IMG/VR virus record: IMGVR_UViG_3300045738_002026
Coordinates: 1-33,675 of that record
Reading direction: 5' to 3' (one strand)
Source of the DNA: a virus
DNA length: 33,675 nucleotides
Part shown: positions 8,571-33,675 of the stretch, piece by piece
Layout: each line of letters opens with the position of its first letter
How positions within the stretch are numbered: position 1 is the stretch's first letter
Program-made: the position numbers and the translations under genes
Notes under the pieces: generated by a model
Database searches by the model: none
The model's input: only the letters and a program-made list of their open reading frames with translations
Told to the model about the DNA's origin: nothing

Positions 8571-8636
8571 AATCCTCCTTGGATTATCTGGTGACGAGTA
8601 TTTCGAAAGAACGGCTATGTCCTTCCTTCAATACTC
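8571..8636 (-). promoter_or_regulatory. Structured leader of the 81-aa gene
   Basis: Upstream of the start codon, AATCC-AAGGA-GGATT (8571-8585) could form a 5-bp hairpin that partly hides the AAGGAGG ribosome site. Further upstream, GAGTATT (8596-8602) and AATACTC (8630-8636) form a perfect 7-bp inverted repeat with a 27-base loop. The leader could hold a promoter after the upstream terminators, but I see no convincing -35/-10 pair. Confidence 0.4.
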
Positions 8637-8644
8637 TTATCCCC

Positions 8645-10979: not shown

Positions 10980-10991
10980 ACTGTTTCCTCC

Positions 10992-13502: not shown

Positions 13503-13503
13503 A

Positions 13504-13779: not shown

Positions 13780-13794
13780 CTAACTTCCTCCCTT

Positions 13795-14010: not shown

Positions 14011-14045
14011 AGCTGCCTCCCTTGTAATATTCATGAATACTACTT

Positions 14046-16455: not shown

Positions 16456-16483
16456 CAGAATCCCTCCTTGTGTTGTGATGAAA

Positions 16484-16592
16484 TTGGGTAGGAAGCACCA
16501 GCCCCCTTCTAAACAAATGAAGAAACTCGCCGTCTACACGGTGAATGAGGACTGGTGCAATGTCCTACCCAAACAGTTTTACTTAGAAGGGG
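16484..16592 (-). ncRNA. Predicted pseudoknotted leader RNA between SSB and DNA polymerase genes
   Basis: Stem P1 has a perfect 10-bp part (16484-16493 with 16563-16572, TTGGGTAGGA/TCCTACCCAA). A 1x4 internal loop follows, then a perfect 7-bp part (16495-16501 with 16552-16558, GCACCAG/CTGGTGC). Helix P2 pairs the loop segment 16503-16512 with 16583-16592 outside P1 (CCCCTTCTAA/TTAGAAGGGG, 10 bp). That makes an H-type pseudoknot whose helices could stack. A small hairpin CCGT-GTAG-ACGG sits in the loop. P2 includes the SSB stop codon, and the polymerase ribosome site begins 15 bases after P1. It may be a translational operator, a processing site or an RNA-stability element. No known RNA family is claimed. 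Confidence 0.6.
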
Positions 16593-17728
16593 ATTCCGTC
16601 GTCGTCCTCGTCATTTGGGTCTACCGACTCTACTGGATCATCCGTAAAGAATTCATCCACTAGAGCTTGGTCTGACGGATTGAAGGGCATATCGACACCC
16701 ATTGTATCCGCTTGTTCCTGTAGGCTCATATGGCCTAGGAACTCTCCAAAATTATAGCCCGTCATCATCCAGTCAGGGATTTTGACACTGGGGTCAGCTG
16801 GAGCAAACTCCAACACCTCAATGGCAGTACCCTTACCAGCCGGAACAGCCTTTACGACAAGGTCAACTGGTTCTGTCAGAGACACCCTTACTGGGTTGCC
16901 GCATCCTTCAGACCACTCTCCCTTATAGCCATCTTGCTGTACACATTCGTACATCTCAACAGCACTCACGTTAGCCTCACACTCAGGGCAGACCACATCA
17001 CCACTACGAAGAACCTGTTCGGTTTCTCTGTCAATTGGGTCGTCTTTGTGGTTGGCCATAATTGCTTCGCACTCAGGGCATTTAAACGCATAAGTGCTAA
17101 TCTCACCCTTGTCACAACTGGCACATTTTTCGGTGAGCCCCTTTAGGGTTGCCGTGAAATTACGGTGTGCCGCTCCTGACATTGACCAGTGCAGTTTTCT
17201 GCCGAATACCTTGTCGTTTCCTTGGTGCTCAGCAGAGTCCAGGGAGCGACCGTGCTTGTCTACCCCAAGACTTCGTTCGTAAATGAAATACTCATTTCCC
17301 TTTTTGGATTGTTTTGGGATTTTATAGAAGTCTTCCAAAACAACTACGCTAACAGCGAACTGCTCACGAGATTGGAGATCTGGATTCTCGGTCTCTAAAC
17401 ATTGATGGTAAAGCACACATGGGACATCTCTTTCTCCGTGCCAGGAATTAGAGATGACTTGTCTTTTACCCCTAGGGGTTGTTGCCCACGCACTTTGGAA
17501 TGGGTACCAAAGTTCACCGTTTTGTCGTGGGAGAAGTCGTATCTTCGTCAACTGTTGTAGAGTCGGGCGAAAATACTCCATTCGTAGTTTCCATGCGGGG
17601 ATCTCAAAACTCCCCCCACTACTTTCGTTGCCGCTGTTGTTGTTTTGTTTACGTCCCGTTTTTTCGTTGAGGCGCTGTCTTTTCTGCGCCTGCATTTTGC
17701 GGAACTCATTGTAGTCTATCGTACTCAT
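16583..17728 (-). CDS. ssb-like: Phage single-stranded DNA-binding protein with zinc ribbons, 381 aa
   Basis: The acidic C-terminal tip (DPNDEDDDGIPF) is the classic SSB tail that docks replication and repair partners. Residues 1-40 are basic and Gln/Asn/Ser-rich. The central region, about 45-200, should contain the DNA-binding fold. Two four-Cys clusters follow, C202/C205/C217/C220 and C247/C250/C262/C276, consistent with one or two zinc ribbons. GGAGG lies 7 bases before ATG, and the start overlaps the primase gene by 23 bases. Position between primase and polymerase supports the assignment. It coats single-stranded phage DNA and likely contacts primase, helicase or nuclease partners through its tail. 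Confidence 0.85.
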   Translation of the reverse strand: MSTIDYNEFRKMQAQKRQRLNEKTGRKQNNNSGNESSGGSFEIPAWKLRMEYFRPTLQQLTKIRLLPRQNGELWYPFQSAWATTPRGKRQVISNSWHGERDVPCVLYHQCLETENPDLQSREQFAVSVVVLEDFYKIPKQSKKGNEYFIYERSLGVDKHGRSLDSAEHQGNDKVFGRKLHWSMSGAAHRNFTATLKGLTEKCASCDKGEISTYAFKCPECEAIMANHKDDPIDRETEQVLRSGDVVCPECEANVSAVEMYECVQQDGYKGEWSEGCGNPVRVSLTEPVDLVVKAVPAGKGTAIEVLEFAPADPSVKIPDWMMTGYNFGEFLGHMSLQEQADTMGVDMPFNPSDQALVDEFFTDDPVESVDPNDEDDDGIPF

Positions 17729-18713
17729 TGGATCTCCTCCAAGTAATCGGTGTCAGTGCCGTCTCTATTGCGGCTTGCACCTCTGTTTGTGACAAATCAT
17801 CAGGGGACCTGTCGTTACTATTTGCTCTATAGTTCGCTATGCGAACATCAAGACCACGAAGCTGATTCTCCGAAATCTTATTTACTGCTTTCCTTCCTGC
17901 ATCATCATTATCTAGAAATAAAACAACCCGATTTGTGACTCTAGTTAACAATGCTTCTTGTTCCCTACTCAAGTAGGAACCGAGAATAGCTACGGTATGT
18001 GTGTACCCGCTTTGAATAACCCACAAAGCAGCCTTGAAACCCTCACATACCACTACTGGCATGTCAAGATTTGTATCAGTATACATTCTGGTTTCATAGA
18101 ACCTATCCAGTCCCCAGAGGACTGTCTTTTTGTCGAAGGAATAATTTGGTATCACTTCGGTTAGCTCATTTTTGTAGATTTTGTAACGTGGCCACTCATC
18201 CTTCACAGTTCTCCCACTGAGTGCCACAAGCTCTCCTAGATGGTTTCTTATTGGGAATATTATACGCTTTCTTCCCCTATCAAAACCAATTTCATATTCC
18301 CTTAAAATACTCTCAGCAAAGCCCGTGCTTAAAAGCTTTTTTGGTATATAGGAAAACATGCCTAATATTGCCTCTGGCAAGATGTCCCAACGAAACTCTA
18401 ATTTTTGGATCTTTTCTTGCTCTGGGCAAATGTCATCTAGGTGTTTTCTAACCCCATCTATTATTGGATTAGGGACAGACAGTTTCTTCAATAATCCCGT
18501 AAAACTCCAGCCCTCTGCACATGTATGGCAAAAGGAAGCCCCCGGGGATTTATTTCTTGTGGGTGTACCTACGTAGACATAGAAGGACGGTTTGGCTTCT
18601 TTTCCTCCTTTGTGAAAAGGACAGTATGCTGCGTAGTTTTCTGACGAAGATTGGTGCTTTTGGAATTTAATATACTCACTTAATATGGATACAACCTCGT
18701 CGCGGTACTCCAT
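17706..18713 (-). CDS. dnaG-like: DnaG-type primase (CHC2 zinc finger plus Toprim), 335 aa
   Basis: The N-terminus has the CHC2 zinc finger: C31-PF-H34 and, after an insert, C62-HT-C65, followed by GWSFTGLLKKL. The middle region (IIFPIRNHLGELVALSGR) is typical of the RNA polymerase domain, and the Toprim domain has E224 (VVCEGFKAAL) and D268-x-D270 (LFLDNDDAGRKA). All catalytic residues are present. The C-terminal helicase-binding domain is short or missing, so the protein is shorter than host DnaG. It starts 1 base after the helicase stop, so the two are translationally coupled and probably form the phage primosome. Confidence 0.93.
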   Translation of the reverse strand: MEYRDEVVSILSEYIKFQKHQSSSENYAAYCPFHKGGKEAKPSFYVYVGTPTRNKSPGASFCHTCAEGWSFTGLLKKLSVPNPIIDGVRKHLDDICPEQEKIQKLEFRWDILPEAILGMFSYIPKKLLSTGFAESILREYEIGFDRGRKRIIFPIRNHLGELVALSGRTVKDEWPRYKIYKNELTEVIPNYSFDKKTVLWGLDRFYETRMYTDTNLDMPVVVCEGFKAALWVIQSGYTHTVAILGSYLSREQEALLTRVTNRVVLFLDNDDAGRKAVNKISENQLRGLDVRIANYRANSNDRSPDDLSQTEVQAAIETALTPITWRRSNEYDRLQ

Positions 18714-18714
18714 A

Positions 18715-20127
18715 CTAGATCCCTAGGTCATCATCTATTTCGTCACGTTCTCTACTGATATTCATAAAAGGACTGTTGACACCACTTTGCTCTGTGGGCT
18801 CGTTGATTGTCGTTGGGTACTGCGCCAAGGATTCTTCAACATTGTAAACATCCTCTAGGGTATACAATTCATCGTGAGCGTAGGAGAAATTTTCCGAGGC
18901 CCTTGCGTTGATTGTGAACCCATGGTCTTTGGTTTCACGCGCAGCAGCCAGGTGGATTGAGATTTCCTCCTTATTCTTATTGTATATTAGGCGGATACCA
19001 ACATCACAGTCCATGACCGCACCACTGTTCATTGCTAATGAGGCTGTCCCTCGTGACTTTGAGTATTTTAGTGCACTCCGTTCGTTTTCTTGCAGGATTG
19101 CCATAATTGGAATTCCTGTCGTTTTTGCGATCTGTTTTAGTCTTCTGTTCACCATAGATAGCTGCTTCCAGTCCAAAGCATTTGAGCCCGCTTTAGGAAG
19201 TTCCAACATATATGCTGAGTCGAGAAGCACAAAATGTGGTCTGTAGACTTCTATTTTTCTTCGGATGTCGTCCGGTCCTCCGGGGTCCCCACCGTGCCGA
19301 TCCGCTTGTGTGAAGACTAATTCACTAGAGTGTTTAGGATCGGTGATAAGTTCTAATTTATCTAAATAAGCAGTTTCCTCTTCGGCGCTGAGCGCATTTT
19401 CTTTCAGCTTGGTGTAATCTGTTTTTGACATAAGAGATGCTACTCGACGCCGAATTTTTTCCCAGGTCATTTCTTTTGAGTAGACCAAAACTCGACGACC
19501 TGTCTCCATGAGGTGCGCTGCAACGACCAACCCAAACCAGGTCTTCATAGACTTAGGCAGGGCCCACACCATTATGTAGTCCCCTTTTTGGATTCCTTGT
19601 GTTGCTGCGTTCATTCTTGCCCAGGGCCAAGGCATCCCGATCATTCCCGCCGTTTCTTTAAGGGCACGTAGTTCATCTATACTTTCTTGGAAGGCCACCC
19701 TGGAAAAGATTACATCTGTGTCTGTGGCGTTTGTCTCCAGGATCTGGCCGAGTTGCTCATGAAGCTTCGCTACAATAGGTAATCCGTTACCCGGCTCTAC
19801 CCCAGACAAATATTTATTCACAGCACTTTCTGTTTCTCTCCGAAGGTGCCCATCCCGAACCTTTGTGCAGAGATCTAAAAAATTCTCCACAGGTTTAGGG
19901 AAATCTAGTGACGGAAAACTTTCCTTTAGGGTCTGTTCGCTAGGAACATGCCCAAAATTATGAGGTCGTCTATAGTGTGCGTCTATAGAGGCCCAAAGAT
20001 TTTTAGCTTCCATGCCTCCGAATGTCCGAAATTCGATGCCCTCTTTTTGGGCAGACTCGAAAAGGTCACCAGGTGCTTCTCCGCGCACGATTGAAGATAT
20101 TAATTGTAGTTCCCAGTTAGCCGCCAT
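18715..20127 (-). CDS. dnaB-like: DnaB-like replicative helicase, 470 aa
   Basis: This is a RecA-fold hexameric helicase of the DnaB family. Residues 1-130 are a helical N-terminal domain. The ATPase domain then runs MPWPWARMNAATQGIQKGDYIMVWALPKS in short segments, with P-loop ALPKSMKTW (K195, T196). Motif 1a is VLVYSKEMTW (for SLEM), Walker B is FVLLDS (D303), a Gln-containing sensor is ILQENERS, and the C-terminal core ends near residue 420 before an acidic tail. The Gly before the P-loop Lys is Met, a deviation from GKT that UvsX-like and some phage helicases also tolerate. GGGAGGG precedes ATG. It works with the adjacent primase at the fork. Confidence 0.88.
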   Translation of the reverse strand: MAANWELQLISSIVRGEAPGDLFESAQKEGIEFRTFGGMEAKNLWASIDAHYRRPHNFGHVPSEQTLKESFPSLDFPKPVENFLDLCTKVRDGHLRRETESAVNKYLSGVEPGNGLPIVAKLHEQLGQILETNATDTDVIFSRVAFQESIDELRALKETAGMIGMPWPWARMNAATQGIQKGDYIMVWALPKSMKTWFGLVVAAHLMETGRRVLVYSKEMTWEKIRRRVASLMSKTDYTKLKENALSAEEETAYLDKLELITDPKHSSELVFTQADRHGGDPGGPDDIRRKIEVYRPHFVLLDSAYMLELPKAGSNALDWKQLSMVNRRLKQIAKTTGIPIMAILQENERSALKYSKSRGTASLAMNSGAVMDCDVGIRLIYNKNKEEISIHLAAARETKDHGFTINARASENFSYAHDELYTLEDVYNVEESLAQYPTTINEPTEQSGVNSPFMNISRERDEIDDDLGI

Positions 20128-20141
20128 GTAACCCTCCCAGC

Positions 20142-20441
20142 CTAAAAATCAGATAACCCAGCGGGAGGCTCCCCAGTTGAGTGTTCTGTGTCGTCGCTTA
20201 TTACACCGATAGTAGTAGAAAACGCTTTTTCGACAGCCCTCACAAGAGCTACCGCCGCTTCGAAAACTTCTTCGTGCTCCTCTAACCCATTTACTGTTAC
20301 CTCTCCTACAGGCTTCCCAGACGCACGATAGCCAATTTTTGCTGCCACAGCGGCCTGCCCGTCACCATCAGTAGATGGGCAGAAAATTTCAACGCTATGT
20401 GCGTGTAGGGAGTCTATAGAGCACCGTAATAGTTCTGCCAT
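20142..20441 (-). CDS. Small protein, 99 aa, unknown
   Basis: AAGAGGA lies 5 bases before ATG, and the start is 1 base past the upstream stop. The fold looks like beta strands (SVEIFCPS, AAKIGYRA, VGEVTVNG) followed by one long helix (HEEVFEAAVALVRAVEKAF). The C-terminus is an acidic Ser/Thr/Pro tail. The strand-strand-helix layout resembles its upstream neighbour at 20443-20868, so the two may be distantly related. No function is assigned. Confidence 0.6.
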   Translation of the reverse strand: MAELLRCSIDSLHAHSVEIFCPSTDGDGQAAVAAKIGYRASGKPVGEVTVNGLEEHEEVFEAAVALVRAVEKAFSTTIGVISDDTEHSTGEPPAGLSDF

Positions 20442-20442
20442 T

Positions 20443-20868
20443 TTAATCCTCTTCCGGGAAAGATCCAGAACAGAGTCGTTCTTTGATATCGATCATGTGC
20501 CCAGCGACAGCCTTCATGATGTGTTCACGAGATGCGTCCCAAGCTAGGTCGTAGGCCATATTGTGAGCCGCTCTGACCGTTTCATCGTTTTGATCACATT
20601 TTAAAGTTACGCTAGAAAACACCTCTACACTAAAGGGGATCTTATCCCAATCCCCAGCCCCATAAAAAACCGCGTCACTTATTTTTGTGGATACACTTGC
20701 GGTGACGGAGGCTTCAAAAGCTTCACCATCTTCTCGCAGGCTATCAATTGGTAATTGTTTCTCCATTCGTTCGTCCTTGCTCCTTAAATTATTCTTCGCT
20801 CCCCAGGTTTTAACGATGGCTAAGCGTAGGGAGGCAAAGGCCTCCCCAGTACGTGGGTCACCATACAT
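20443..20868 (-). CDS. Protein of unknown function, 141 aa
   Basis: The preferred start is ATG at 20868, because GAGG lies 7 bases upstream. A GTG at 20874 is possible but too close to that site. After a basic N-terminal arm (SLRLAIVKTWGAKNNLRSKDER), the body contains beta segments (FEASVTASVSTKISDAVF and FSVEVFSSVTLKC) and a long helix (ETVRAAHNMAYDLAWDASREHIM). The strand-then-helix plan is common among short phage operon proteins of unknown role. It lies in the replication operon directly upstream of another such protein. Confidence 0.6.
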   Translation of the reverse strand: MYGDPRTGEAFASLRLAIVKTWGAKNNLRSKDERMEKQLPIDSLREDGEAFEASVTASVSTKISDAVFYGAGDWDKIPFSVEVFSSVTLKCDQNDETVRAAHNMAYDLAWDASREHIMKAVAGHMIDIKERLCSGSFPEED

Positions 20869-20886
20869 GGTCACACCTCATCTTTG

Positions 20887-21327
20887 CTACTTCTTGCCAC
20901 CAACAATATCAAACATAATCTCTTTGGGTCCGAATACTTTTGGCCTACCGTATTCCACACTTTGTCCTCCCTCTACATCGGCATGTGAGATTCTTCCCGT
21001 AAGGATTAGATCCTCAACTATTTTTGGATCAATGGATTTCACAACACCCTTCAGAAGTAAAACTTCTGGGTTAATTTTTGTGGCGTCGTACTTAACAGAT
21101 TTAGATTTTGCCGAACGTGTGAAGCTTCCGATACTGATTTTATCAGGACCGGTCATTTCCCGAACTTGGTCTTTGGCATCCTTTAATAGTGTATTGTATG
21201 CCTTCATTATTGGTATGAAAGAGTCCAGAAACTTTTGGTTTTCTGTCTTCTTGAAAAAGACATGTAAGTCATCCCTTGCTTTTTCATACTCTGCTACGGC
21301 CTCTTTTGCGTCTGAGTTTTTACTCAT
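20887..21327 (-). CDS. Protein of unknown function, 146 aa
   Basis: AGGAG lies 8 bases before ATG, inside the last codons of the UDG-like gene. Residues 1-60 are helical and charged, resembling a coiled coil (AEYEKARDDLHVFFKKTENQKF). Residues 65-146 are basic then mixed, ending in a hydrophobic strand (EIMFDIVGGKK). The neighbours are helicases and a DNA repair-like protein, so a DNA-metabolism role is plausible but unsupported by motifs. Confidence 0.6.
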   Translation of the reverse strand: MSKNSDAKEAVAEYEKARDDLHVFFKKTENQKFLDSFIPIMKAYNTLLKDAKDQVREMTGPDKISIGSFTRSAKSKSVKYDATKINPEVLLLKGVVKSIDPKIVEDLILTGRISHADVEGGQSVEYGRPKVFGPKEIMFDIVGGKK

Positions 21328-21330
21328 TGG

Positions 21331-22002
21331 CTATCTCCTTTTTTTCATTAATGTTTCTGAAATATCTACAGCCTGTTTGAAGTGGCCAATGGTCTTATTC
21401 CAAATACCCCTGACATTTTGTGAGGGATCTCGGTACAATTTATTCATTGAATTTGTGACCATCATGGGCACTGGGTACACGCCCATATCCCCCTCTATAT
21501 ACGCCTCAACGACCCTACCCAAATTTGTTCCATGAGGGGTTGCCGATGCGGGCGTGACAGCTTTATAGGCTGCTGTCCCACAAGCGATAATAATTGATGG
21601 TTGTATGGTGTGTATCTCCCCAAACAACCTCCCAGAACAGGCTGTTGCTTGTTTAGAGGAGGGAGAAGGAAGAAACTCTAATTGAGTCTTTCCAATTTTC
21701 TTGGTTGGACAAATAACAACAGGAGTAATCCAGAGAAGATTGGATCTTATTACTGGGTAATCCTCGGCTACAAACCTGAGAACTTGCTGTAGTGTTTTTC
21801 CCTCACCACCATCTAATATATTACCACTAGATGCCGCCCGGGGACTCACTTTATCCAACAGGATTATTATGGAAGCTTTTACGCTTCCCCTTCCGAGGAT
21901 TAATGTTTTTCTGTTTTTATGGAGACTGCAATCTTCACAGTCACGAAATGTTCGAAGGAAAGATTTGAGGTCATCCTTCGACGGTTTTGAATGATAATCC
22001 AT
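21331..22002 (-). CDS. Family-4 uracil-DNA glycosylase-like Fe-S protein with changed active-site motifs, 223 aa
   Basis: The layout follows family-4/5 UDG: an opening CEDCSLHKNRKTLILGRG (C22, C25), then IIILLDK, a GEG-KTLQQVL segment, WITPVVICPTKK (C98), QATAC (C122) and QPSIIIACGTAAYKAV. The four cysteines fit the family's [4Fe-4S] cluster. The catalytic signatures are not conserved: the expected GEAPG is LDKVSP (49-54), and the late HPS motif is replaced near VTNSMNKLYRDPS. It may therefore bind rather than excise uracil, or have another base specificity. The ATG at 22002 lies 32 bases inside the helicase gene with a distant AAGGA. Earlier in-frame starts would add sequence fully overlapping the helicase. 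Confidence 0.7.
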   Translation of the reverse strand: MDYHSKPSKDDLKSFLRTFRDCEDCSLHKNRKTLILGRGSVKASIIILLDKVSPRAASSGNILDGGEGKTLQQVLRFVAEDYPVIRSNLLWITPVVICPTKKIGKTQLEFLPSPSSKQATACSGRLFGEIHTIQPSIIIACGTAAYKAVTPASATPHGTNLGRVVEAYIEGDMGVYPVPMMVTNSMNKLYRDPSQNVRGIWNKTIGHFKQAVDISETLMKKRR

Positions 22003-23374
22003 GTGACACAATATTCCTTTTGAGTGCGCGACACATGTGAGTAGAAGGTCCGAGGTAGATGTCATCCATAACCAGGACAAGGGGAGTCTTTTTGTTTTTG
22101 GCTTGACGCTCGATACGCCCCTTCCCTTGCTGGAAAGACCCCCAGGATTTAAAGGGGGTAGTGAACACAAGAGTGTCCAAAGCCTCAACATCCAGACCTT
22201 CCTTTGCTACCTGGAAAGTGGCGAACGTCACATCAGAATCTCTAATGACACGGGTACGGTCCTCACCGGAAGTGTCCCCAGTGACAACGCCGCTCGTATA
22301 CCTATTCATACGAGGATTGTCGAGGAAATTTTCGTGTAAAATTTTGGGGTGCACCTTGCTGTGAGCCAGAACAAGGATCTTCCTGTTTTTGAGTAAAGCC
22401 TCTTCGACAAACTTCAAAATTCTTCTGTTTCTATCCTTGTGGCTGGCAAGGTATCTATACATTTTTGGGGCAGAAAACTCCCCAGTTTTATCTCTTAATA
22501 TTGACTCGTTTTTCGGTTGCTCCGTGGGCAACTTCACAAAATAGGTATCTGCGGACAGGTCTCCCTCAAGATCACTGTGAAAAATTCCCCCTATGTGTGC
22601 ATAATAAACATCTTCTAAGCCGTCCTCCCTACGCGGGGTTGCGGTTAGTCCATATCTATTACCGAGAAATAAATCAGCGGTTTGACTAAATTTGGTAGCA
22701 CTTAGATGGTGCACTTCATCAAAAATAATTGTTCCAAACCGGGTTCTGATATCCATATCTAACCCACGCTGTGCATGGTTTGCTAATGAGTGTATCATTG
22801 CTAATACTATAGGTTTGTCCCATTCAGCTTTTGGGCCCTGTACGATTCCAATATCACTCTCATTCATATCAAGAAATTGGCAGGTACGATCTACCCATTG
22901 CTCCATTAGTCCGCTATTGTTCACAATAACTATGGCGGGGAAACCACGCTGTTGTATCTTCCTGAGCGCCAGGACTGTCTTCCCCTTTCCGCAGGCTAGG
23001 TTCAAAACACCGTTCTCTGCCGCCGAAAAGGCTTCCCAAGCTTCCTTTTGGGCCGTATCTCTTGGGGTGATATTTCCCCCAAAAGATACGGATTCCCACA
23101 TTAACTCTAATGCTGGGATGGACCAGTTGCCTAGTTTTTTGATCCATTCCTCCTCAGAAAACAAGTGCTTAGCCACTACTATGTGGTAGATATCCTTACG
23201 GGCCAGTGCGATTTTACGTACCTCCCCTGTATGTGAGTTTTCTGATCTTATTGTGGCTGCTCGTATAAAAGCCTCCATATTACTAATTACTGATTTAGGG
23301 ACCCACATATTAGATGAACAGAAAGCATTATCGATAATAAGCTTTCCGTTATCTACCTCTGGGAGATACATCAT
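21971..23374 (-). CDS. SF2 DNA helicase, UvsW/XPB-like, 467 aa
   Basis: The superfamily 2 motifs are in order: I ACGKGKT (127-133), Ia VNNSGLMEQW, II DEVHH (219-223), III LTATP (243-247), IV region ILVLAHSK, V EGLDV, and VI QGKGRIER (416-423). This layout matches the branch-migrating or annealing helicases such as T4 UvsW and the XPB/RadD group. The first 100 residues are an accessory domain. GGAG lies 5 bases before ATG, overlapping the upstream stop. It probably remodels recombination intermediates and stalled forks, and works with the nucleases downstream. Confidence 0.9.
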   Translation of the reverse strand: MMYLPEVDNGKLIIDNAFCSSNMWVPKSVISNMEAFIRAATIRSENSHTGEVRKIALARKDIYHIVVAKHLFSEEEWIKKLGNWSIPALELMWESVSFGGNITPRDTAQKEAWEAFSAAENGVLNLACGKGKTVLALRKIQQRGFPAIVIVNNSGLMEQWVDRTCQFLDMNESDIGIVQGPKAEWDKPIVLAMIHSLANHAQRGLDMDIRTRFGTIIFDEVHHLSATKFSQTADLFLGNRYGLTATPRREDGLEDVYYAHIGGIFHSDLEGDLSADTYFVKLPTEQPKNESILRDKTGEFSAPKMYRYLASHKDRNRRILKFVEEALLKNRKILVLAHSKVHPKILHENFLDNPRMNRYTSGVVTGDTSGEDRTRVIRDSDVTFATFQVAKEGLDVEALDTLVFTTPFKSWGSFQQGKGRIERQAKNKKTPLVLVMDDIYLGPSTHMCRALKRNIVSHGLSFKTVEG

Positions 23375-23376
23375 AT

Positions 23377-23811
23377 TTACTCCAATATTTTGATAATTCT
23401 TGTCCTCAAAAAGTGCAAGAAGCTGGGACTCTGTCTGTCGGGGCTGATATACTCTGAAAACAAAGCAAGCAGTTGCTCTACCTTATCATCAGATACTGCC
23501 GAGTCGTCTAAGTATCTAGAAAGCTCTGCGTTTGCTGCGACCCCATAAGACCTCTTTTCCCCTTCTTTCCTGTTCCGCCTCCCTTCGTGTAGGGCTGCGA
23601 CCACTTCCTTTGAGCCCTCTGAGTCTAGGTTGAGGTCAAGCACTTTGAGCATTTGCAATAAAGCCTGGTTTGAGGGCATAGTCTGTCCAGACTCATAATT
23701 TCTTATGGTTTCTCTGGAGAGACCACAATCCCTAGAAAACTCCCTGCCGGATGTGTATCCAGAGGAGATCCTTAGATTTTTTAATACACGCCCAAACCTG
23801 GATTGTGTCAT
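23377..23811 (-). CDS. XRE-family HTH transcriptional regulator, 144 aa
   Basis: The N-terminal helix-turn-helix is clear: FGRVLKNLRISSGYTSGREFSRDCGLSRETIRNYESGQTMP in overlapping segments (residues 6-46), with the SRETIRNYESG recognition helix typical of the XRE/Cro group. The C-terminal half is helical and may dimerise or bind a partner. The gene is second in the leftward operon and starts inside its neighbour's stop codon (ATGA). It lies about 300 bases from the divergent junction, so autoregulation of the early operon is plausible. Confidence 0.85.
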   Translation of the reverse strand: MTQSRFGRVLKNLRISSGYTSGREFSRDCGLSRETIRNYESGQTMPSNQALLQMLKVLDLNLDSEGSKEVVAALHEGRRNRKEGEKRSYGVAANAELSRYLDDSAVSDDKVEQLLALFSEYISPDRQSPSFLHFLRTRIIKILE

Positions 23812-24071
23812 TCTTCTTCCCTACTCGCTGTTTCCTCTTGAGGCGAGGATTCTGTTGCAGTATCAGACTCCTCATCAGAAGGTAGTTTGATTTTTGGGAC
23901 CTCGATTGTTAATTCCACACCACTCCTGTTATTATCTTGTGATATTATGCTTGATAGAGCATTCACAGCTTCTGCGAGACCAGCCATGCCAGCTTCGATT
24001 AATACGTCTTTGAGCTTTGTCCGCTTACGTGGTACTTCCACTGTCAGCGTACATCTTTTATCATTGTCCAT
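23808..24071 (-). CDS. Small acidic-tailed protein, 87 aa, unknown; first gene of the leftward operon
   Basis: GGAGG is followed by two ATGs. The second, at 24071, has a 5-base spacing and is preferred over 24074 (2 bases). Longer starts reaching 24140 have no ribosome site and would run into the divergent promoter region. Residues 1-35 contain beta segments and a basic patch (PRKRTKLK), then a helix (VLIEAGMAGLAEAVNALSSII), a second strand (GVELTIEVPKIKL) and a long Glu/Ser/Thr tail. The acidic tail could mimic DNA or dock partners. No family recognised. Confidence 0.6.
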   Translation of the reverse strand: MDNDKRCTLTVEVPRKRTKLKDVLIEAGMAGLAEAVNALSSIISQDNNRSGVELTIEVPKIKLPSDEESDTATESSPQEETASREEE

Positions 24072-24158
24072 CATAACCTCCGGGTTTTGAATTAGAAAAA
24101 GTTTAGGGCTTTCCAGTTGACTTATACCAAAAACATTCAAACCCTTGTGGGAGAAAAA
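24072..24158. promoter_or_regulatory. Divergent intergenic region, leftward operon and rightward head genes
   Basis: The two transcription units start back to back across about 87 bases, so both promoters should lie here or just inside the genes. On the minus strand GGTATAAG (24128-24121) is preceded by T, giving the extended -10-like TGGTATAAG, about 47 bases before the first leftward start. The same octamer occurs upstream of the small leftward genes at 28184-28177. No convincing -35 box accompanies either copy. Confidence 0.4.
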
Positions 24159-25818: not shown

Positions 25819-27807
25819 ATGAGTTACGGTTCCGAAAGGTATGGGATATCTTCTTCAGGCTCGAAGGCTAAATCAGTCGGTCGCCCTGAAAGTTTTTACC
25901 CATCCCCATTTTTTGATATTGCCCAAAATTATCTCCCCAAGACAATCAAAGAGACATTTGATTGGTGTCATTACTACCAACTATCCAATCCAATAGTTAA
26001 CTCGATTACCCAGAAGCTAGCAACATATCCCATCACTGATTTGGTCTATGAAGAAGACAATGAAGGTGTTGTTGATATTTATAAGGAGATGTTTGAGAAG
26101 CAATTCCTTCTCAGATCATTCCTGATTGAAATCAACTTAGACAGGTACACCTACGGAAATTGCTTCATTTCTGTTGCCTTCCCGTTCACTAAAATTTTGA
26201 AGTGTACGAATTGTGGTTGGGATAGCCCAGCAAAAGAGTCTGGGTATAAATGGAAGGGGTTCCAGTTTCATCTGAATTGCCAACAATGCAATTACAGTGG
26301 AGTTGCGAAGGTCACAGATGAGCCAGTTAAGTCTTCCCTAAAAATTAGGCTCATTCGTTGGAATCCAAAACATATCACCATAAATTATAACGAGATCACC
26401 GGTAAGTATCTTTATTATTATAGAATGCCTAGAGGGTTAAGAAATGATATTACCCTTGGAAAACCGGATGTTTTAGAGACAATCCCACAAGCATTTATAG
26501 AGGCTATCCGAAAGAAGAAATCCATACTTTTGGATAGTGACAAGATTTTCCATAGTAGACGCCCTTCTATCTCAAGAGAGCCTTCGGATAGTGGTTGGGG
26601 AGCCCCGCTAATTCTTCCTGTTCTGAAAGACATTTTCTTTCTCCAGATTCTTCGTAAAGCCCAAGAGGCTGTTGCGATGGAACATGTTGTACCTATGCGG
26701 GTTATGTTCCCGCAGATCACGACAGACGGTAATAATCCTTACGCGCAAATAAATCTCAAAGACTGGCAAGAAGAAGTTCAAAACCAGATCGTTCGGTGGC
26801 GACAGGACAATAACCACATCCCCGTAATGCCAGTACCAATTGGATATCAAATGATCGGTGGGCAGGGAAAAAGCCTCCTGCTGCACCAGGAACTGCGTGT
26901 TTACTCCGACCAAATTATCGCGGGTATGGGGGTTCCGACAGGATTCTTTTACGGTGAGGCTCAATACTCTGGTGCCTCTGTGAACCTACGTGCTTTGGAG
27001 AATGAGTTCTTGGGTAATAGGCAGGACATGCTCCGGTGTGTTGAGTTTATTAGGGATCGTGTTGCCCACTTCTTGGGATTACCAGTTATAGGTTTGAGAT
27101 TCAAACCATTCAAAATGGCTGATGATATTCAAAGAGCTTCTTTTGATATGAATCTAGCTAATGCTGGCATGATCAGCCGACGAACATTCTTGCAGTCGAG
27201 GGACTACAATTTTGATACTGAGCAAGATCTGATGAAAAAGGAGAATGAGACGCTTTCACTTGTTCAACGGGAGCAACAGATCAGACAAACCGAAGCTCAA
27301 GGGGAGTCCATGCTTATTCAGACTCGATACCAAATTGAGTCTCAAAATATGCAGCAAGAAAACACAGCACAAATGCAGCAGCAATATGGCCCTCCTCCTG
27401 GTACTGAGCAGCAACAGGGCGCAGAGCAACAGGGCGCAGAGCAACCAGCGCAACAACAAGCTGGTGCAGAGCAACAGCAGCAAGCTGCCGCTCCTGAGCA
27501 ACAAGAACAGCAACAACAATCTGCCACAGGGCAGGATGCCGGTACCGTTCAGGGGGCTGAGCAAAGCCCCATCCAGGCACAGCAAAGCCCAATGGTTGAC
27601 CTGTTTGCACAGGCAAAACAGCTTTCTAGTGAGCTAAAAAAGATGAATGAAGTAGATAGGTACCGGGCGCTGGCACAGATACGTGCCAGCAACCCGGATT
27701 TATATATGCTTGTGAACAATGCCCTTTCGGGCGGAGGGTTGCAGCCTATGAAGCCTTTACCCGAAAAGTTACCACCGAGATCAGGACCAGGAAGTGCACA
27801 GATCTAA
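25819..27807 (+). CDS. Portal protein with inserted zinc ribbon and Gln-rich C-terminal tail, 662 aa
   Basis: Portals form the dodecameric ring at the unique capsid vertex through which DNA is packaged. Recognisable features are an N-terminal wing region, a crown/stem-like core and VPTGFFYGEAQYSGASVNLRALENEF followed by FIRDRVAHFLGLPV, which is typical of phage portals. A small Cys4 unit, C129/C132 and C154/C157 (CTNCGW and CQQCNY), is inserted in the wing region and probably binds zinc. Residues 484-596 are extremely Gln/Glu/Ala-rich, which accounts for the extra length. The last 65 residues are helical and Pro-rich. AAGGGG precedes ATG by about 8 bases. Confidence 0.82.
   Translation: MSYGSERYGISSSGSKAKSVGRPESFYPSPFFDIAQNYLPKTIKETFDWCHYYQLSNPIVNSITQKLATYPITDLVYEEDNEGVVDIYKEMFEKQFLLRSFLIEINLDRYTYGNCFISVAFPFTKILKCTNCGWDSPAKESGYKWKGFQFHLNCQQCNYSGVAKVTDEPVKSSLKIRLIRWNPKHITINYNEITGKYLYYYRMPRGLRNDITLGKPDVLETIPQAFIEAIRKKKSILLDSDKIFHSRRPSISREPSDSGWGAPLILPVLKDIFFLQILRKAQEAVAMEHVVPMRVMFPQITTDGNNPYAQINLKDWQEEVQNQIVRWRQDNNHIPVMPVPIGYQMIGGQGKSLLLHQELRVYSDQIIAGMGVPTGFFYGEAQYSGASVNLRALENEFLGNRQDMLRCVEFIRDRVAHFLGLPVIGLRFKPFKMADDIQRASFDMNLANAGMISRRTFLQSRDYNFDTEQDLMKKENETLSLVQREQQIRQTEAQGESMLIQTRYQIESQNMQQENTAQMQQQYGPPPGTEQQQGAEQQGAEQPAQQQAGAEQQQQAAAPEQQEQQQQSATGQDAGTVQGAEQSPIQAQQSPMVDLFAQAKQLSSELKKMNEVDRYRALAQIRASNPDLYMLVNNALSGGGLQPMKPLPEKLPPRSGPGSAQI
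27337..27600 (+). repeat. Gln/Glu/Ala low-complexity repeat within the portal gene
   Basis: The coding strand contains repeated GAGCAACAG and GGCGCAGAGCAA units (two near-identical copies at about 27418-27444) and long CAG/CAA tracts. They encode an AEQQ-type tail. Such tracts are prone to slippage, so tail length may vary between relatives. It is not a CRISPR array, because there are no spacers. Confidence 0.6.
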
Positions 27808-28025
27808 TCTACACAAATTAAGATTGCGGACGCTTTGTCACAGCGGTCACATCTTCCTTTTTGGAAAAATGAAGAGGTATTGTCGTTGTGCCTAATGCAC
27901 TTAGAACATATCCAATTATTGGCTCCACTCTTCCAGTCGAGGAAGTAGCTACACACCCCACAGTTCGTGGGCTCTCGGCAGTACCCTTGTTTTATGAAAC
28001 ACCTTATCGATTTTTTGGTTTTCAC
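27804..28025 (-). CDS. Cys-rich zinc-ribbon-like protein, 73 aa
   Basis: Nine of 73 residues are Cys. Three CxxC pairs, NCGVC (22/25), ICSKC (40/43) and RCDRC (59/62), plus C9, C16 and C71, suggest two or more zinc sites. The GTG start has no good ribosome site, but the stop of the preceding 32-aa gene lies 3 bases upstream, so coupled translation is possible. The stop overlaps the portal stop region on the other strand by 4 bases. It runs leftward between two rightward genes. A nucleic-acid-binding or polymerase-adapter role would be speculation; the gene itself is moderately certain. Confidence 0.6.
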   Translation of the reverse strand: MKTKKSIRCFIKQGYCREPTNCGVCSYFLDWKSGANNWICSKCIRHNDNTSSFFQKGRCDRCDKASAILICVD

Positions 28026-28127: not shown

Positions 28128-28195
28128 AAATACAGACTCCTTTCTCTTTTGTTTGGGGGCCATATTACCCATAACTCTTATACCTAACTACTGTG

Positions 28196-28217: not shown

Positions 28218-31200
28218 ATGTCGAATGTACTCGACCCCCAGAGGGTAATGAAAACCCTTGAAGACGGGACGATAAATGAAATCAAAAAGTTTTTTCCATT
28301 AGAAGGGAAGAAACATACGTTAGTAGCTAAAAATATCTACATTGGTGACCCAGTAGATTTAGATGACATAGCAAGTCAAAAGAAAGCTAGATTGCGGGGA
28401 AGAACCTGGGCACAGGGTATTCTTGGGGACTTTGATCTCATAGAGAATGAGACCGGCAAAGTTTTAGATTCAGTAAAAAAAGTTAAGGTACTCAACCTGC
28501 CAAAGATTACACGCAGGTTTAGTTACATAATTGACGGTACAGAGTACCAAGCAGATAACCAATGGCGTCTGAAATCTGGTGTGTATGCCAGGAGAAAAGC
28601 AAATGGAGAGCTTGAATCCCAGTTTAACTTAGTTAAAGGTAGGGGATTTCGACTTGGTTTTGACCCGGCCAAGAAAAGGCTCCTTATGTCTTATGGGTCT
28701 TCTAATGTTCAGCTACTTCCTGTGCTGCAAGCATTGGGTGTCCCAGATGAGCAGATCAGCGCTACTTGGGGCAAAGAACTATACACAAGCTCCGTAGCGG
28801 CCAAGAAGAAAGGGGAGCTTGTAAAACTCTCAAAGGTTTTTGATAAGTCTGCCGGGGCGAAGACTGATTCAGAGGCAGTACCAATCATCCAAGAAGCGCT
28901 AAAAAATACAGAGCTTCTACCAGAGACAACACAGATTACTTTAGGAAAGGCGTTTACTTCTGTAACCGGTGAAGCGCTTCTCACGTCATCCAATAAGCTT
29001 ATTAATATTAATAAAGGCGTGGACAAGGTAGATAATCGTGATGCCCTACAGTTTAAGGAACTGTGGTCTATTGATAATCACATTCCTGAGAGGCTTGATA
29101 ATTCGAAAAGACGCATTATCTATAAGATGAAAAATAATTTGGATCGAAAGGATAATATTCGGTCTATTATTACTTCTGATATTTTCAATGTCCCTGTGAA
29201 GGCTTTTTTTACGTCAACTTCATTATCCCAACAAACTTCCCAGGTTAATATTGTTGACATGATGGGCGGGTTTTTAAGAACCACAATCATGGGAACTGGT
29301 GGGATTCAGAACGACAGCGCTATTTCAGAAGAAGCGAAACTTATTGATTCGAGTTTTCTGGGGTTCATTGACCCCGTACACACACCGGAAGGGAAAAGAT
29401 CTGGAATTAGTGGTCATCTGACTCTTGGAGTCAGGAAGAAAGGGACCACACCGCAAGTCCGCGTTTTTGACGTAAAGGCCAAGAAATATGTAGATAAATC
29501 CCCAGCGGATATTGTTTTGGGAAATATAGCCTTCCCAGACCAATATGATTTTACATCGGAGAAGCAGCCAAAACCTAAGAGAGACAACATAATTGTTATC
29601 CCTGCGGGTGGTGGGGACCCAAGCAAGGTACCTCTTTCTGAGGTTGACTATATTCTTAGATCCCCAAAGCAAATGTTTTCTATTACCGCTAATCTAATTC
29701 CCTTTCTGTCTTCAGACCAAGCGGGCAGGGCAGGAATGGCAACTAGACACATTGAGCAGGCTATTTCTTTGAAGAATCCTGAGGCACCTTTGATCCAGGT
29801 AGTTTCTGGGAACCCGGATAAAGCATATTCAACATGGGAAAAGATTGTTGGGAGATTCACATCACACTCCTCTCCTGTGTCTGGTTTCATTGACTCTGTT
29901 TCACCTTCTAAAATAATTGTGAAGGATCTAGCCGGTAAAAAACACGAGGTTCAACTCTATGACAACTTCCCCCTAAATGACAAAAAAGCTTTCATCACAA
30001 GTAAACCCCTCGTTAAAAAGGGGGATAAGGTTTCTACTGGACAAACGATTGCGGACACTAATTTTACAAAGGGTGGGACACTTTCATTAGGGACCAATCT
30101 TAGGGTTGGGTACCTACCATATAAAGGTTTGGTGTTTGAAGACGGTGTCGTCATCAGTGAGTCTGCTTCCACCAAATTAACAAGTAATCACCTTCACAAA
30201 GAACGATCCTATATCGATAAAAATATGTCGGTGGGGCTAAAAAAATTCAGGGCCAACTACCCAGGTTTCATATCAGACGAAAATGCGGAAAAATTAGACG
30301 CTGATGGGGTGATCAAGAAAGGTCAGATACTTAACCCCGGGGATACGATCACCACTGTTCTTCAGAAAACAGAACCATCAAAGGAACAACTACTTTTACG
30401 AGGTATTCATAAGTCTTTGGTAAGGCCCTACAAGAATAAATCCTTAGTATGGGACAAACCGTATAGAGGCGAAGTTACTGATGTGGTTAGAAATGGTAGG
30501 GAGATTGTAGCCTACGTTAAGACATCTGAGCCAGCAGATATAGGTGACAAGCTAACGGGCCGTCATGGAAACAAGGGGGTTATCACTGCGGTCATCCCAG
30601 ACGAGGAGATGCCGAAGGATGCCGAAGGAAATACGCTTCAGATTATACTAAACCCATCAGGAGTTCCTGGGAGAATTAATCCAGGCCAAGTTTTAGAGAC
30701 CGCTTTAGGAAATGTTGCCTATAAAAACGGTGACCCAATGGCGGTTGAGAACTTTCAACCAGATGATGCCAAAAAAATTATTCGTGTAAAGGCGCACACG
30801 AGAACTATCCAGACCAAAGAGGGACCAAAACAAATTCAGGTTAAGGGGCACGAGAGAGACCTTGGGTATCGAGATGCTGTTGTTGCTGAACTAAAGAAGG
30901 CTGGGTTATCTGAGACCCGCGAATTGTTTGATCCACAGACAGGCAAGAGCTTGGGGAAGGTATTGGTTGGTCATCAGTATATTCTTAAATTGATGCACCA
31001 AGTAGACAAGAAGCTTAGCGCAAGGGCACACGGATATGGTTACGATTACGATGCCAATCTTGTACCAAAAAGTGGGGGCAAAACCGGGGGAGCACAGAGA
31101 TTCGGTGAACTTGGTCTATACGCTATGCTTGCTCATGGGGCGACTGCAAACATACGTGACGCTCTGACCTATAAGGGCGACAAAGCCCAGGATGAAGTTT

Positions 31201-33675
31201 GGACAGCAGTACAGACCGGAGCAATCCTCCCCGCACCAAAGCCATCCTTTGCCTACGAAAAATTCCTGGCCTACATGAACGCTCTTGGGCTGAATGTTGA
31301 AAAAGATGGTAACGGCCTTATTGTCTCACCATTAACGGACAAACAAATTGTGGATATGTCCAATGGGGAGATAAAAGATGGAAGTCGCGTTATTCGTGGG
31401 AAAGACTTGAAGCCAGAGAAAAATGGATTGTTTGATGAGGATATCACTGGTGGACCTGGGGGAAAGAATTGGTCTCATATAAAGCTTGCAGAATCCATCC
31501 CGAATCCTGTGTTCGAGAAGGGGATTCGCTCACTTTTAGGGATTACAGGAAAAGAGTATGACGCAATAATAGCCAGTAGTCTTGGATTCAACGAAGAGGG
31601 TGAACTCGTACCTACAGAGGACGGGGGAATGACGGGGGCCGCAGCTATTGCGGAACGCCTTAAATCCGTAGACCTCGTAAAAGAGTTGGCAGAAGCGAAA
31701 GAGGCCATAAAAACCGTTCGTCAAAACGACTTAGATAAGGTTAACAAGAAGATCAAATATATTTTGATGCTTCAGAAAAACAACATAAGCGCTGAGGAAG
31801 CATATGTGCTGGACCACATACCAGTGCTCCCACCTTTATTCAGGCCCATAACTGCGATGGAGGGTGGAGACCTGAACATTGATGGTGTGAATATGCTCTA
31901 TAGAGACATCGCACTTCTCAACAAAAAGCTAAAAGAAGCCAAAGGTGTTCTTCCAGAGAGTGAAATTTTTAGGCTTCGTGATGATTTGTACTCTGCCGCA
32001 GAAGCTCTTATGGGAGTCCAAACCGCCACGCAGGGTGGCCTCACCACGGACGGGCAACCGGCACCCCATGGTATTTTACAGATCCTCTCTGGGCGGTCTT
32101 CTCCAAAGCAAAGTTACTTCTTACAGCGGCTTATTGATAGGCGACAAGACATCAGTATGCGCTCTGTCATTGTGCCAGATATGAATCTCCATCTAGATGA
32201 GCTTGGTCTTCCCAGAAAAGGGGCCATGAAAATTTACAGACCATTTGTGGTGAAGGAGCTTGTGAAAATGGGGTACACCCCATTACAGGCTAGGGAGGAG
32301 ATAGAGAAGGGCAGCGATCTCGCAAATAAAGCGCTTGAAATTGCCGTAAACAAACGACCGGTTATGTTTAAAAGAGATCCCGTACTTCATAAGTTTGGGA
32401 TTTTGGCCTTCAAGCCTAGACTTCATAATGAGTCTGCTATTCATATTCATCCACTTGTTGTTGGTGGATTTAACGCAGATTTCGATGGGGACACAATGGC
32501 TGTGTTTGTTCCTGTGTCCCAAGAGGCTGTCGATGAAGCATATAAAATGATGCCTTCTAGGAACTTATTTAATCCAGCCACCGGGCAAGTGATGTACCAG
32601 CCTTCTCTTGAAGGACAGCTGGGTTTATATCTTCTTACTAAATGGGGGAAGAAAAAGAGCAAGTCGTACAAGAACGCTAAGGATGCTATTTCAGCGGCTA
32701 AAAAAGGAGATATCAGTATGACTGATGTCGTCCAGGTTGGAATATTAAAAACAACGGCTGGACGCCTTATTTTTAATAGTAAGTTACCCAAGAAGATTCA
32801 ATCTGAAACGTATCTTACGGACCCCAAGGCTGTCTTAGATAAAAAATTTCTACAGGGTGTCCTCAGAACCCTAGCCACGAAAGCACCAGCAGAATTCGCC
32901 CAGACCGTAGATAAGATCAAAGAACTTGGGTTTGGCCACGCCTACAACATTGGCTTTAGTTTCAGCTTGTCTGATTTCAAACCACTTCGGGACATCCGAG
33001 AAAAGTACATGTCAAAGGCTAGCAGGCAAGAAGCTGTTGTACGAAAACAGTTGGAAATGAAGCTAATTTCTCAAGAAGCGGCTGATGATAATATTGTTAA
33101 GATATATTTAGAGGCTGAAAATGCCATGTCTATAGAGGCTAAAATAGCCTTAGATAGTGGTGGGAATCATTTAAAGTTAATGAATAATGCGGGGATCAAA
33201 CCTGGCTGGGACCAATTAAAACAGCTAATTTTATCTCCAATGCTTTTAGAGAATGCACAAGGCCGAATTATTCCGGTTCCCGTGTCTAGATCTTACGCCG
33301 AAGGATTACAGGCATCCGATTACTGGGTTACGGCTTCTGGTGCCAGGTCTGGTTTGATAAAGAAGGTGCAATCAGTACAGCTTCCCGGTGCTCTGAATAA
33401 GCAAATAGCAAACACTGCAATCTCGTACATTATTACCGCTGATGATTGTGGGACAACTAAGGGGATTGCTCTTGAATCCACTGATTCAGATCTTGTGGAT
33501 CGATATACCGCAAAGGCTATTTCTGTTCCTGGGCTTAAAATACCTGCTGGCTCCCTTATTACCCCTAATATGATTTCTAGGTTTAAATCAGCAAAGGTTG
33601 ACCGAGTTATCGTAAGGACACCTCTGAAATGTGAACTACCCAAGGGGATGTGCGCTCGTTGTTATGGTGTGACAG
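28218..33675 (+). CDS. rpoB-rpoC fusion: Single-chain RNA polymerase beta/beta-prime fusion (3' truncated by window), at least 1819 aa
   Basis: GGAGG lies 6 bases before ATG, and the frame is open to the window edge. The first ~1000 residues are beta: DPVHTPEGKRSGISG, YLPYKGLVFEDGVVISE, GRHGNKGV (781-788) and LMHQVDKKL, then GGAQRFGELGLYAMLAHGA (about 955-975). From about 1040 it is beta-prime: KPEKNGLFDED (near 1070), RPVMFKRDPVLHKFGI, the catalytic NADFDGD loop (1419-1425) and DDCGTTKGI. The second zinc site C1744, C1805, C1812, C1815 (CARCYG) is complete. The beta-prime N-terminal zinc finger (CxCGxxK...CxxC) is absent between NGLFDED and KLAES. By homology, 400-500 residues including the trigger loop remain outside. 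No alpha, omega or sigma gene is in the window. Confidence 0.96.
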   Translation, partial: MSNVLDPQRVMKTLEDGTINEIKKFFPLEGKKHTLVAKNIYIGDPVDLDDIASQKKARLRGRTWAQGILGDFDLIENETGKVLDSVKKVKVLNLPKITRRFSYIIDGTEYQADNQWRLKSGVYARRKANGELESQFNLVKGRGFRLGFDPAKKRLLMSYGSSNVQLLPVLQALGVPDEQISATWGKELYTSSVAAKKKGELVKLSKVFDKSAGAKTDSEAVPIIQEALKNTELLPETTQITLGKAFTSVTGEALLTSSNKLININKGVDKVDNRDALQFKELWSIDNHIPERLDNSKRRIIYKMKNNLDRKDNIRSIITSDIFNVPVKAFFTSTSLSQQTSQVNIVDMMGGFLRTTIMGTGGIQNDSAISEEAKLIDSSFLGFIDPVHTPEGKRSGISGHLTLGVRKKGTTPQVRVFDVKAKKYVDKSPADIVLGNIAFPDQYDFTSEKQPKPKRDNIIVIPAGGGDPSKVPLSEVDYILRSPKQMFSITANLIPFLSSDQAGRAGMATRHIEQAISLKNPEAPLIQVVSGNPDKAYSTWEKIVGRFTSHSSPVSGFIDSVSPSKIIVKDLAGKKHEVQLYDNFPLNDKKAFITSKPLVKKGDKVSTGQTIADTNFTKGGTLSLGTNLRVGYLPYKGLVFEDGVVISESASTKLTSNHLHKERSYIDKNMSVGLKKFRANYPGFISDENAEKLDADGVIKKGQILNPGDTITTVLQKTEPSKEQLLLRGIHKSLVRPYKNKSLVWDKPYRGEVTDVVRNGREIVAYVKTSEPADIGDKLTGRHGNKGVITAVIPDEEMPKDAEGNTLQIILNPSGVPGRINPGQVLETALGNVAYKNGDPMAVENFQPDDAKKIIRVKAHTRTIQTKEGPKQIQVKGHERDLGYRDAVVAELKKAGLSETRELFDPQTGKSLGKVLVGHQYILKLMHQVDKKLSARAHGYGYDYDANLVPKSGGKTGGAQRFGELGLYAMLAHGATANIRDALTYKGDKAQDEVWTAVQTGAILPAPKPSFAYEKFLAYMNALGLNVEKDGNGLIVSPLTDKQIVDMSNGEIKDGSRVIRGKDLKPEKNGLFDEDITGGPGGKNWSHIKLAESIPNPVFEKGIRSLLGITGKEYDAIIASSLGFNEEGELVPTEDGGMTGAAAIAERLKSVDLVKELAEAKEAIKTVRQNDLDKVNKKIKYILMLQKNNISAEEAYVLDHIPVLPPLFRPITAMEGGDLNIDGVNMLYRDIALLNKKLKEAKGVLPESEIFRLRDDLYSAAEALMGVQTATQGGLTTDGQPAPHGILQILSGRSSPKQSYFLQRLIDRRQDISMRSVIVPDMNLHLDELGLPRKGAMKIYRPFVVKELVKMGYTPLQAREEIEKGSDLANKALEIAVNKRPVMFKRDPVLHKFGILAFKPRLHNESAIHIHPLVVGGFNADFDGDTMAVFVPVSQEAVDEAYKMMPSRNLFNPATGQVMYQPSLEGQLGLYLLTKWGKKKSKSYKNAKDAISAAKKGDISMTDVVQVGILKTTAGRLIFNSKLPKKIQSETYLTDPKAVLDKKFLQGVLRTLATKAPAEFAQTVDKIKELGFGHAYNIGFSFSLSDFKPLRDIREKYMSKASRQEAVVRKQLEMKLISQEAADDNIVKIYLEAENAMSIEAKIALDSGGNHLKLMNNAGIKPGWDQLKQLILSPMLLENAQGRIIPVPVSRSYAEGLQASDYWVTASGARSGLIKKVQSVQLPGALNKQIANTAISYIITADDCGTTKGIALESTDSDLVDRYTAKAISVPGLKIPAGSLITPNMISRFKSAKVDRVIVRTPLKCELPKGMCARCYGVT

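Follow-up and report, generated by a model that had tools for sequence, protein, structure and literature searches.

The stretch of viral DNA analyzed here (hereafter the window) is IMG/VR record IMGVR_UViG_3300045738_002026 in full, with a length of 33,675 bases, and it ends in an RNA polymerase (RNAP) gene on the plus strand (28218..33674) that encodes 1,819 of approximately 2,090 amino acids in a stop-free frame, the 3' end being cut by the end of the contig. The beta half covers residues 1 to ~1026 (28218..31295, plus strand), as delimited by Pfam Rpb2_3/6/7 and by phmmer alignment to bacterial beta chains over residues 14-1027, and the beta-prime part, assigned by Pfam and phmmer, runs from residue ~1027 onward (31296..33674, plus strand) minus its last ~270 amino acids. 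The domains follow one another in a single chain in the order Rpb2_3, Rpb2_6 (5.6e-53), Rpb2_7, Rpb1_1, Rpb1_2 (7.1e-27) and Rpb1_3. A phmmer comparison with solved structures gave 202 matching sequences at E ≤ 0.001, the 60 best of which were all bacterial beta or beta-prime. The GRHGNKGV motif of the beta double-psi barrel (residues 781-788; 30558..30581, plus strand) and the NADFDGD catalytic loop (residues 1419-1425; 32472..32492, plus strand) are both intact, and in the alignment of relatives both are invariant or near-invariant. The original prediction, which proposed a phage-encoded single-chain fusion of beta and beta-prime with motifs of bacterial grade, is borne out by the one frame carrying both sets of Pfam domains, by the presence of both motifs and by recovery of the double-psi barrels of both halves. 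As judged from its sequence, the window gene is the core of a bacterial-type DNA-dependent RNAP with beta and beta-prime as one polypeptide.

Directly upstream of the RNAP gene lies a portal protein gene (25819..27807, plus strand) with 29.7% identity (2.6e-98) to portal protein Gp204 of Salmonella phage Arash, and this order of portal then RNAP is common to the window, its relatives, Arash and Vibrio phage D69. Between the two genes, on the minus strand, sits a conserved small Cys-rich, zinc-ribbon-like protein of 73 amino acids (27804..28025), which is recognisable in the window and in 10 of the 12 relatives inspected and has 8-10 Cys. At the other end of the window, a presumed tail protein of 2,489 amino acids (740-8209, plus strand) had no Pfam or PHROG match. 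The interval from 8769 to 24140 is a leftward (minus strand) replication block, in which Pfam and PHROG searches identified a family A DNA polymerase, a DnaB-like helicase, a DnaG-like primase, RecA/UvsX, a ResIII helicase, a Cas4-like nuclease, RusA, a uracil-DNA-glycosylase-like protein and an HTH protein.

Searching viral contigs with the window RNAP returned 30 loci at 31-82% identity, 29 of which were examined; near-duplicates among them bring the number of distinct lineages to roughly twenty. The beta-to-beta-prime frame was complete and uninterrupted in 27 of the 29 and the remaining two run off their contigs. Complete chains without inteins are 2,079-2,154 amino acids long, and longer where in-frame inteins sit. 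The end that is absent from the window comprises, in the relatives, the trigger helix GTNIG(L/V)IAG.(S/A)IGERGTQLSMK.FHTGG and ~180 more residues, and the same 27 loci have the trigger helix region in frame, as for example in locus L020 (CSKCYGITDNG...GTNIGLIAGTSIGERGTQLSMKAFHTGG). The bridge/trigger region characteristic of beta-prime is therefore present, with the trigger helix visible in the relatives only, the window protein being cut. A stop or frameshift just past the window, which the original prediction had named as a possible flaw, was looked for in the relatives and found in none. Since the chain is complete and in frame, with its trigger loop and beta-prime C-terminus, in nearly all loci, truncation or chimerism is excluded for the lineage. 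An AlphaFold model of the beta-prime half of one complete relative was of low confidence (pLDDT 56); its fold matches were bacterial beta-prime, which added little to the sequence comparison. Several of the loci carry inteins with LAGLIDADG or Hom_end domains. One RNAP (L027; contig IMGVR_UViG_3300037483_000453, 9992-19735) has three in-frame inteins, of which one follows DPVRTPE, one immediately follows NADFDGD and one interrupts the trigger helix behind MKAFH, and L023 and its near-copies (L023-L025, L029) have one exactly at the beta/beta-prime junction (LSWK/C...GN/SDR, slashes marking the boundaries).

Phylogenetic analysis was carried out against bacterial references of many phyla (19 phyla or classes, with no archaeal or eukaryotic sequences), and the long-branched phage sequences Carin-5, Va2 and L026, whose placement was unsure, were left out of the careful tree. 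The window lineage clusters with Arash and D69 in one group (100/100) that stands apart from all bacteria (91/97). Cellular rpoBC fusions exist, for example in Helicobacter, and in Helicobacter and its relatives beta is likewise followed by beta-prime in one chain; the phage clade, however, does not fall with the Campylobacterota, a forced grouping with them being rejected (AU p = 0.000324), and the phage chain is without the N-terminal zinc ribbon, alpha and omega (see below). The existence of such cellular fusions is all that could be said for a chimeric assembly with a host rpoBC, a recent capture from a host or a decayed gene, for which we found no support: the loci come from independent contigs of many metagenomes with conserved synteny, the phage clade lies outside all sampled bacterial phyla and the catalytic residues are intact. 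These explanations are refuted for this data set and we give them practically no weight. The depth and root of a phage RNAP branch have been addressed for the mReC enzymes (PMC7481178). GTDB genomes were scanned for copies in cells or prophages with only two short family patterns; none of the 147 matches was a relative, which is weak evidence of absence. Several sequences deposited as phages (among them OR846602.1, OR844998.1 and CAKLQF020000005.1) carry ordinary cellular rpoB-rpoC and, judged from their matches, look like bacterial contamination.

The nearest full-length cultured relatives are the Vibrio phages D69, D148 and D181 (OZ195729, OZ196545, OZ196140) and Salmonella phage Arash (OQ632216; PMC10585845), with 31% identity along the chain. 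The Vibrio phages have the same enzyme family and portal adjacency, and Arash additionally has homologous capsid, terminase, helicase, baseplate and sigma proteins and likewise lacks the N-terminal zinc ribbon. In contrast to the window lineage, the enzymes of Arash and D69 are encoded by two genes, one for beta and the N-terminal part of beta-prime (1,525-1,527 amino acids; Gp206 in Arash) and one for the C-terminal part of beta-prime (606-609 amino acids; Gp216), which in Arash are ~4.8 kb apart. The split falls in beta-prime after the catalytic barrel, at window residue ~1509 and within ~20 residues of the end of cyanobacterial rpoC1 in our reference set; phiKZ-like and cyanobacterial enzymes are divided at the same place (PMC7598289). 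D148 and D181 have this split as well, and in D181 (L174) the beta part is broken again next to a homing endonuclease gene, leaving three coding pieces. The 81% relative G001 has the portal, helicase, terminase, capsid and baseplate proteins and the sigma factor in common with Arash, and on account of this common virion module the window is assigned to an uncultivated lineage of ~180-kb tailed phages that is distant kin of Arash.

The two zinc sites of bacterial beta-prime have fared differently in the phage chain. At the place of the N-terminal zinc ribbon (GLFDEDITGGPGGKNWSHIKL; 31425..31487, plus strand) all 29 phage sequences have no Cys in the segment, versus at least four in each of the 61 bacterial sequences in which the segment was found. 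The second site is represented by Cys 1744, 1805, 1812 and 1815 (33447..33662, plus strand), and the window protein has no other Cys. In 19 of 27 family members the complete chain contains four Cys and no more, all of them ligands of this site, as recognised by the motif in 17 and by matching positions in two. In L026 (contig IMGVR_UViG_3300020567_000242, 31% identity), a single-chain RNAP farther from the window, the second site has been lost as well, and the translated frame has a single Cys. The small Cys-rich protein encoded beside the RNAP gene could be an accessory that replaces the lost ribbon. Elements for sigma docking are recognisable in the phage chain. The helix EQLLLRGIHKS (residues 723-733; 30384..30416, plus strand), near-invariant in the alignment of relatives, resembles the flap tip, the part of bacterial beta to which sigma region 4 binds, and the region at 31881..32015 (plus strand; Pfam Rpb1_1) aligns with the bacterial clamp helices, the docking site of sigma region 2.

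A sigma70-type homologue was found, using a protein of the relative G010 as query, in eight of the nine relatives of at least 134 kb (G001-G006, G008 and G009) and in Arash and D69; no sigma was found in the ninth, G007 (143 kb). The G010 protein (331 amino acids) matches Pfam Sigma70_r3 above the cut-off (1.3e-5), the PHROG sigma factor match of the lineage protein is 3.9e-12, and all 50 best PDB matches of its AlphaFold model (pLDDT 69) are bacterial sigma chains (E 1e-8 to 3e-6). Region 3 is over the cut-off, region 2 is weak and region 4 is seen only by fold. Detection depended on the weak match in G010, as Pfam searches for sigma regions 2 and 4 alone gave matches only in the isolates and, weakly, in G010, and missed the lineage sigma in all long contigs. 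The distance between the sigma and RNAP genes is ~60 kb in G001-G003, which explains why a 33-kb fragment has no sigma, and the genes around sigma in G001 and G010 are homologues of Arash virion genes. Profiles for alpha (PF01000, PF01193) and omega (PF01192) had no match in the long relatives, with positive controls in 13-14 of 14 genomes; alpha appears to be absent by these profile searches, which a very divergent alpha-like protein would escape. The original prediction of an enzyme with no alpha, omega or sigma in sight consequently holds for alpha and omega and fails for sigma, which is conserved in the lineage and lies outside the fragment. Arash and D69 have a second sigma (Gp196, 120656-121693, and 0246, 133187-133963, respectively; 42% identical to each other), possibly for another stage, and no homologue of Gp196 was found in G001 or G004.

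These data bear on whether the single chain might take the place of host beta-beta-prime and assemble with alpha, and possibly sigma, from the host. Such borrowing would fit the good conservation of the flap tip, the clamp helices and much of beta domain 6, and no phage alpha was found, but the lineage has a conserved sigma of its own, the phiKZ-like phage RNAPs offer a precedent for function without alpha (PMC7598289) and the promoter word described below has a G where host sigma70 needs a T. We regard this borrowing as very unlikely.

De novo counting of words in the upstream regions of G001 gave GGTATAAG as the top word after Shine-Dalgarno. Copies that are noncoding and upstream of a gene in the same direction make up 8 of 15 in G001 and 6 of 13 in the held-out G004, and in neither genome did any of 559 letter permutations score as high. 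Genome-wide numbers exceed a Markov model modestly in G001 (15 vs 6-8 expected) and G004 (13 vs 6), compared with 31 vs 4 in Arash; the evidence in G001 and G004 is one of position rather than count, Arash being the exception. When a matrix built from ten G001 sites was applied to G004, 13 of the 19 best matches fell in the 6.7% of that genome that is noncoding. At these sites TATAAG is preceded at ~17-18 bp by a GCAA-like block and followed after ~4 bp by TTGA. The same counting applied independently to Arash again returned GGTATAAG as the top word (11 vs 0.1 expected), with 30 of the 31 copies on the non-structural-gene strand, and in D69 a TATAAGTAAT-type word, missing the leading GG, is enriched upstream of genes.

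The window contains two copies of GGTATAAG, both on the minus strand. One promoter-like element (28177..28184) lies upstream of the small Cys-rich gene and is invariant in 11 of 11 aligned sequences in the midst of variable DNA; the other (24121..24128) lies upstream of the leftward replication block, at the same place as in G001. Two variants, GGAATAAG (21394..21401, minus strand; weight matrix 18.9 bits) and GGGATAAG (8636..8643, minus strand; 19.7 bits), are each ~70 bp upstream of a leftward gene (20887-21327 and 8323-8568, respectively). All four face leftward, to replication genes or the small Cys-rich gene, and no copy or variant in the window faces the RNAP gene, an absence that fits late synthesis of the enzyme alongside virion proteins. 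Exclusion of GGTATAAG from the structural blocks was considered and dropped, as 0 of 17 against ~15% expected falls short of significance after normalisation to noncoding bases. Late-promoter words were also sought de novo in front of structural genes, with no convincing result.

The resemblance of GGTATAAG to the -10 box TATAAT raises the question of whether it is read by host RNAP with sigma70 rather than by the phage enzyme, and T4, a user of host RNAP, does yield GTATAAT-type words (together with GTTTACA) by the same method. The eighth and last base of noncoding GGTATAAN is, however, G in 36 of 44 cases, in place of the conserved final T, and there is no TTGACA-like -35 element. The word is also common to sequence-unrelated phages that have this RNAP and sigma, and it is absent or at background in the examined stretches of T4, phiKZ and TM30. 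Reading by the host enzyme is, in our assessment, unlikely.

Evidence on where the enzyme acts comes from mass spectrometry of Arash particles, in which RNAP Gp206 was the most-detected protein (128 unique peptides/3516 spectra), above the major capsid protein in spectra, and was accompanied by Gp216 (40 unique peptides/1210 spectra) and sigma Gp10 (24 unique peptides/467 spectra, 100% coverage; PMC10585845). Gp10 (11892-12596) is the orthologue of the lineage sigma (match 11910-12542). From the published counts we calculated spectra per residue of ~2.3 for Gp206, ~2.0 for Gp216, ~2.0 for Gp10 and 1.5 for the portal, a ratio of core pieces to sigma close to 1:1:1. The list comprises 116 proteins, several of them clearly non-structural, and its authors allow for carry-over of abundant intracellular proteins; the second sigma Gp196 is not in it (PMC10585845). 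It is conceivable, and left open by the Arash authors, that the RNAP is synthesised in the infected cell to transcribe middle or late genes while host RNAP reads the early genes, its presence in Arash particles being carry-over. The second sigmas (Gp196 and 0246), not listed in virions, could serve another stage. Against this stand the rank of the RNAP in the particles, the near-equal spectra per residue of the three presumed holoenzyme parts, the adjacency of the RNAP gene to the portal gene in all relatives, and the location of GGTATAAG, which in the window goes with the leftward replication genes and in Arash with the strand of non-structural genes, and we consider a non-virion role improbable. 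By analogy with Arash, we infer that the RNAP is packaged and injected in the window lineage as well.

Our data suggest that the enzyme is probably a virion-packaged, alpha-less, one-chain RNAP that works with its own sigma and is injected to start early transcription. According to this model, the RNAP, encoded next to the portal gene, would be produced from the block of virion genes and enclosed in the particle together with the phage sigma70-type factor; it would then enter the cell with the DNA and begin transcription of early and replication genes from GGTATAAG promoters, with the phage sigma docking on the clamp helices and flap tip that the chain has kept. In cells, RNAP assembly depends on an alpha dimer that brings beta and beta-prime together, and the fusion may take over this part of the role of alpha by keeping the two joined, offering a simple answer to assembly without alpha. 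We infer the pairing of core and sigma, recognition of GGTATAAG by the pair and independence from host alpha.

Several phage enzymes resemble the one described here in part. The mReC RNAP of tailed phages (Weinheimer and Aylward 2020) has NADFDGD, can be aligned to the bacterial subunits and branches outside bacteria (PMC7481178), and the window lineage likewise has NADxDGD, with a beta and beta-prime that can be aligned and that fall outside the bacterial clade. The main text of that study describes neither a fusion nor a sigma, and the mReC capsids that were recognised were all PF07068, albeit in only 8 of 97 mReC contigs (PMC7481178). PF07068 was found in none of 14 lineage records (nine of them at least 134 kb), whose capsid is Arash-like, and was found instead in phages with separate genes, namely Rhizobium TM30, whose beta-prime is a separate gene with the N-terminal zinc ribbon kept, and Cobetia Carin-5, with separate beta and beta-prime genes. 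The link to this metagenomic lineage drawn in the original prediction thus stands for the motif and the branch outside bacteria and not for the capsid; we do not file the window lineage as mReC, and overlap is possible because so few mReC contigs had a recognised capsid.

The phiKZ/AR9-like RNAPs are also without alpha and omega, have a virion enzyme that serves early genes and share the beta-prime split site of Arash and D69, but they consist of at least four polypeptides rather than one, have no reported recognisable sigma70-type factor and are far more divergent in sequence (PMC7598289). The expected difference from these split enzymes is therefore confirmed, with one chain and a sigma in the window lineage. 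The crAss-like gp66 resembles the window enzyme in having both barrels in one chain, and crAss-like phages and P23-45, with its tail-tape-fused RNAP (PMC10770324), provide cases of virion-delivered RNAP for early genes. Gp66, however, has minimal barrels versus a full bacterial-type beta-beta-prime, and the crAss-like RNAP sequence is unrelated at profile level (PMC7481178); the predicted distinction from its DxDxD motif agrees with the NADFDGD and the strong Pfam and PDB matches of the window protein. Phage RNAPs that branch deeply, that travel in the virion or that have two barrels in one chain were each already known separately. In the literature covered, which was mostly open-access, we found no description of a phage in which beta and beta-prime of full bacterial type form one chain and are accompanied by a cognate sigma.

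In its most specific form, which we put forward more tentatively, the enzyme may be a two-protein holoenzyme of a ~235-kDa beta-beta-prime chain and one sigma70-type factor, without alpha or omega and packaged in the virion, with GGTATAAG as a private -10 word common to phages whose DNA is otherwise unalignable and with the small zinc-ribbon protein perhaps replacing the lost ribbon in trans. A one-chain bacterial-type RNAP with sigma-docking elements and its own sigma would amount to a minimal holoenzyme open to direct testing, and the question of the deep-branching phage RNAPs gains a cultured handle in Arash and D69 together with a predicted promoter code.
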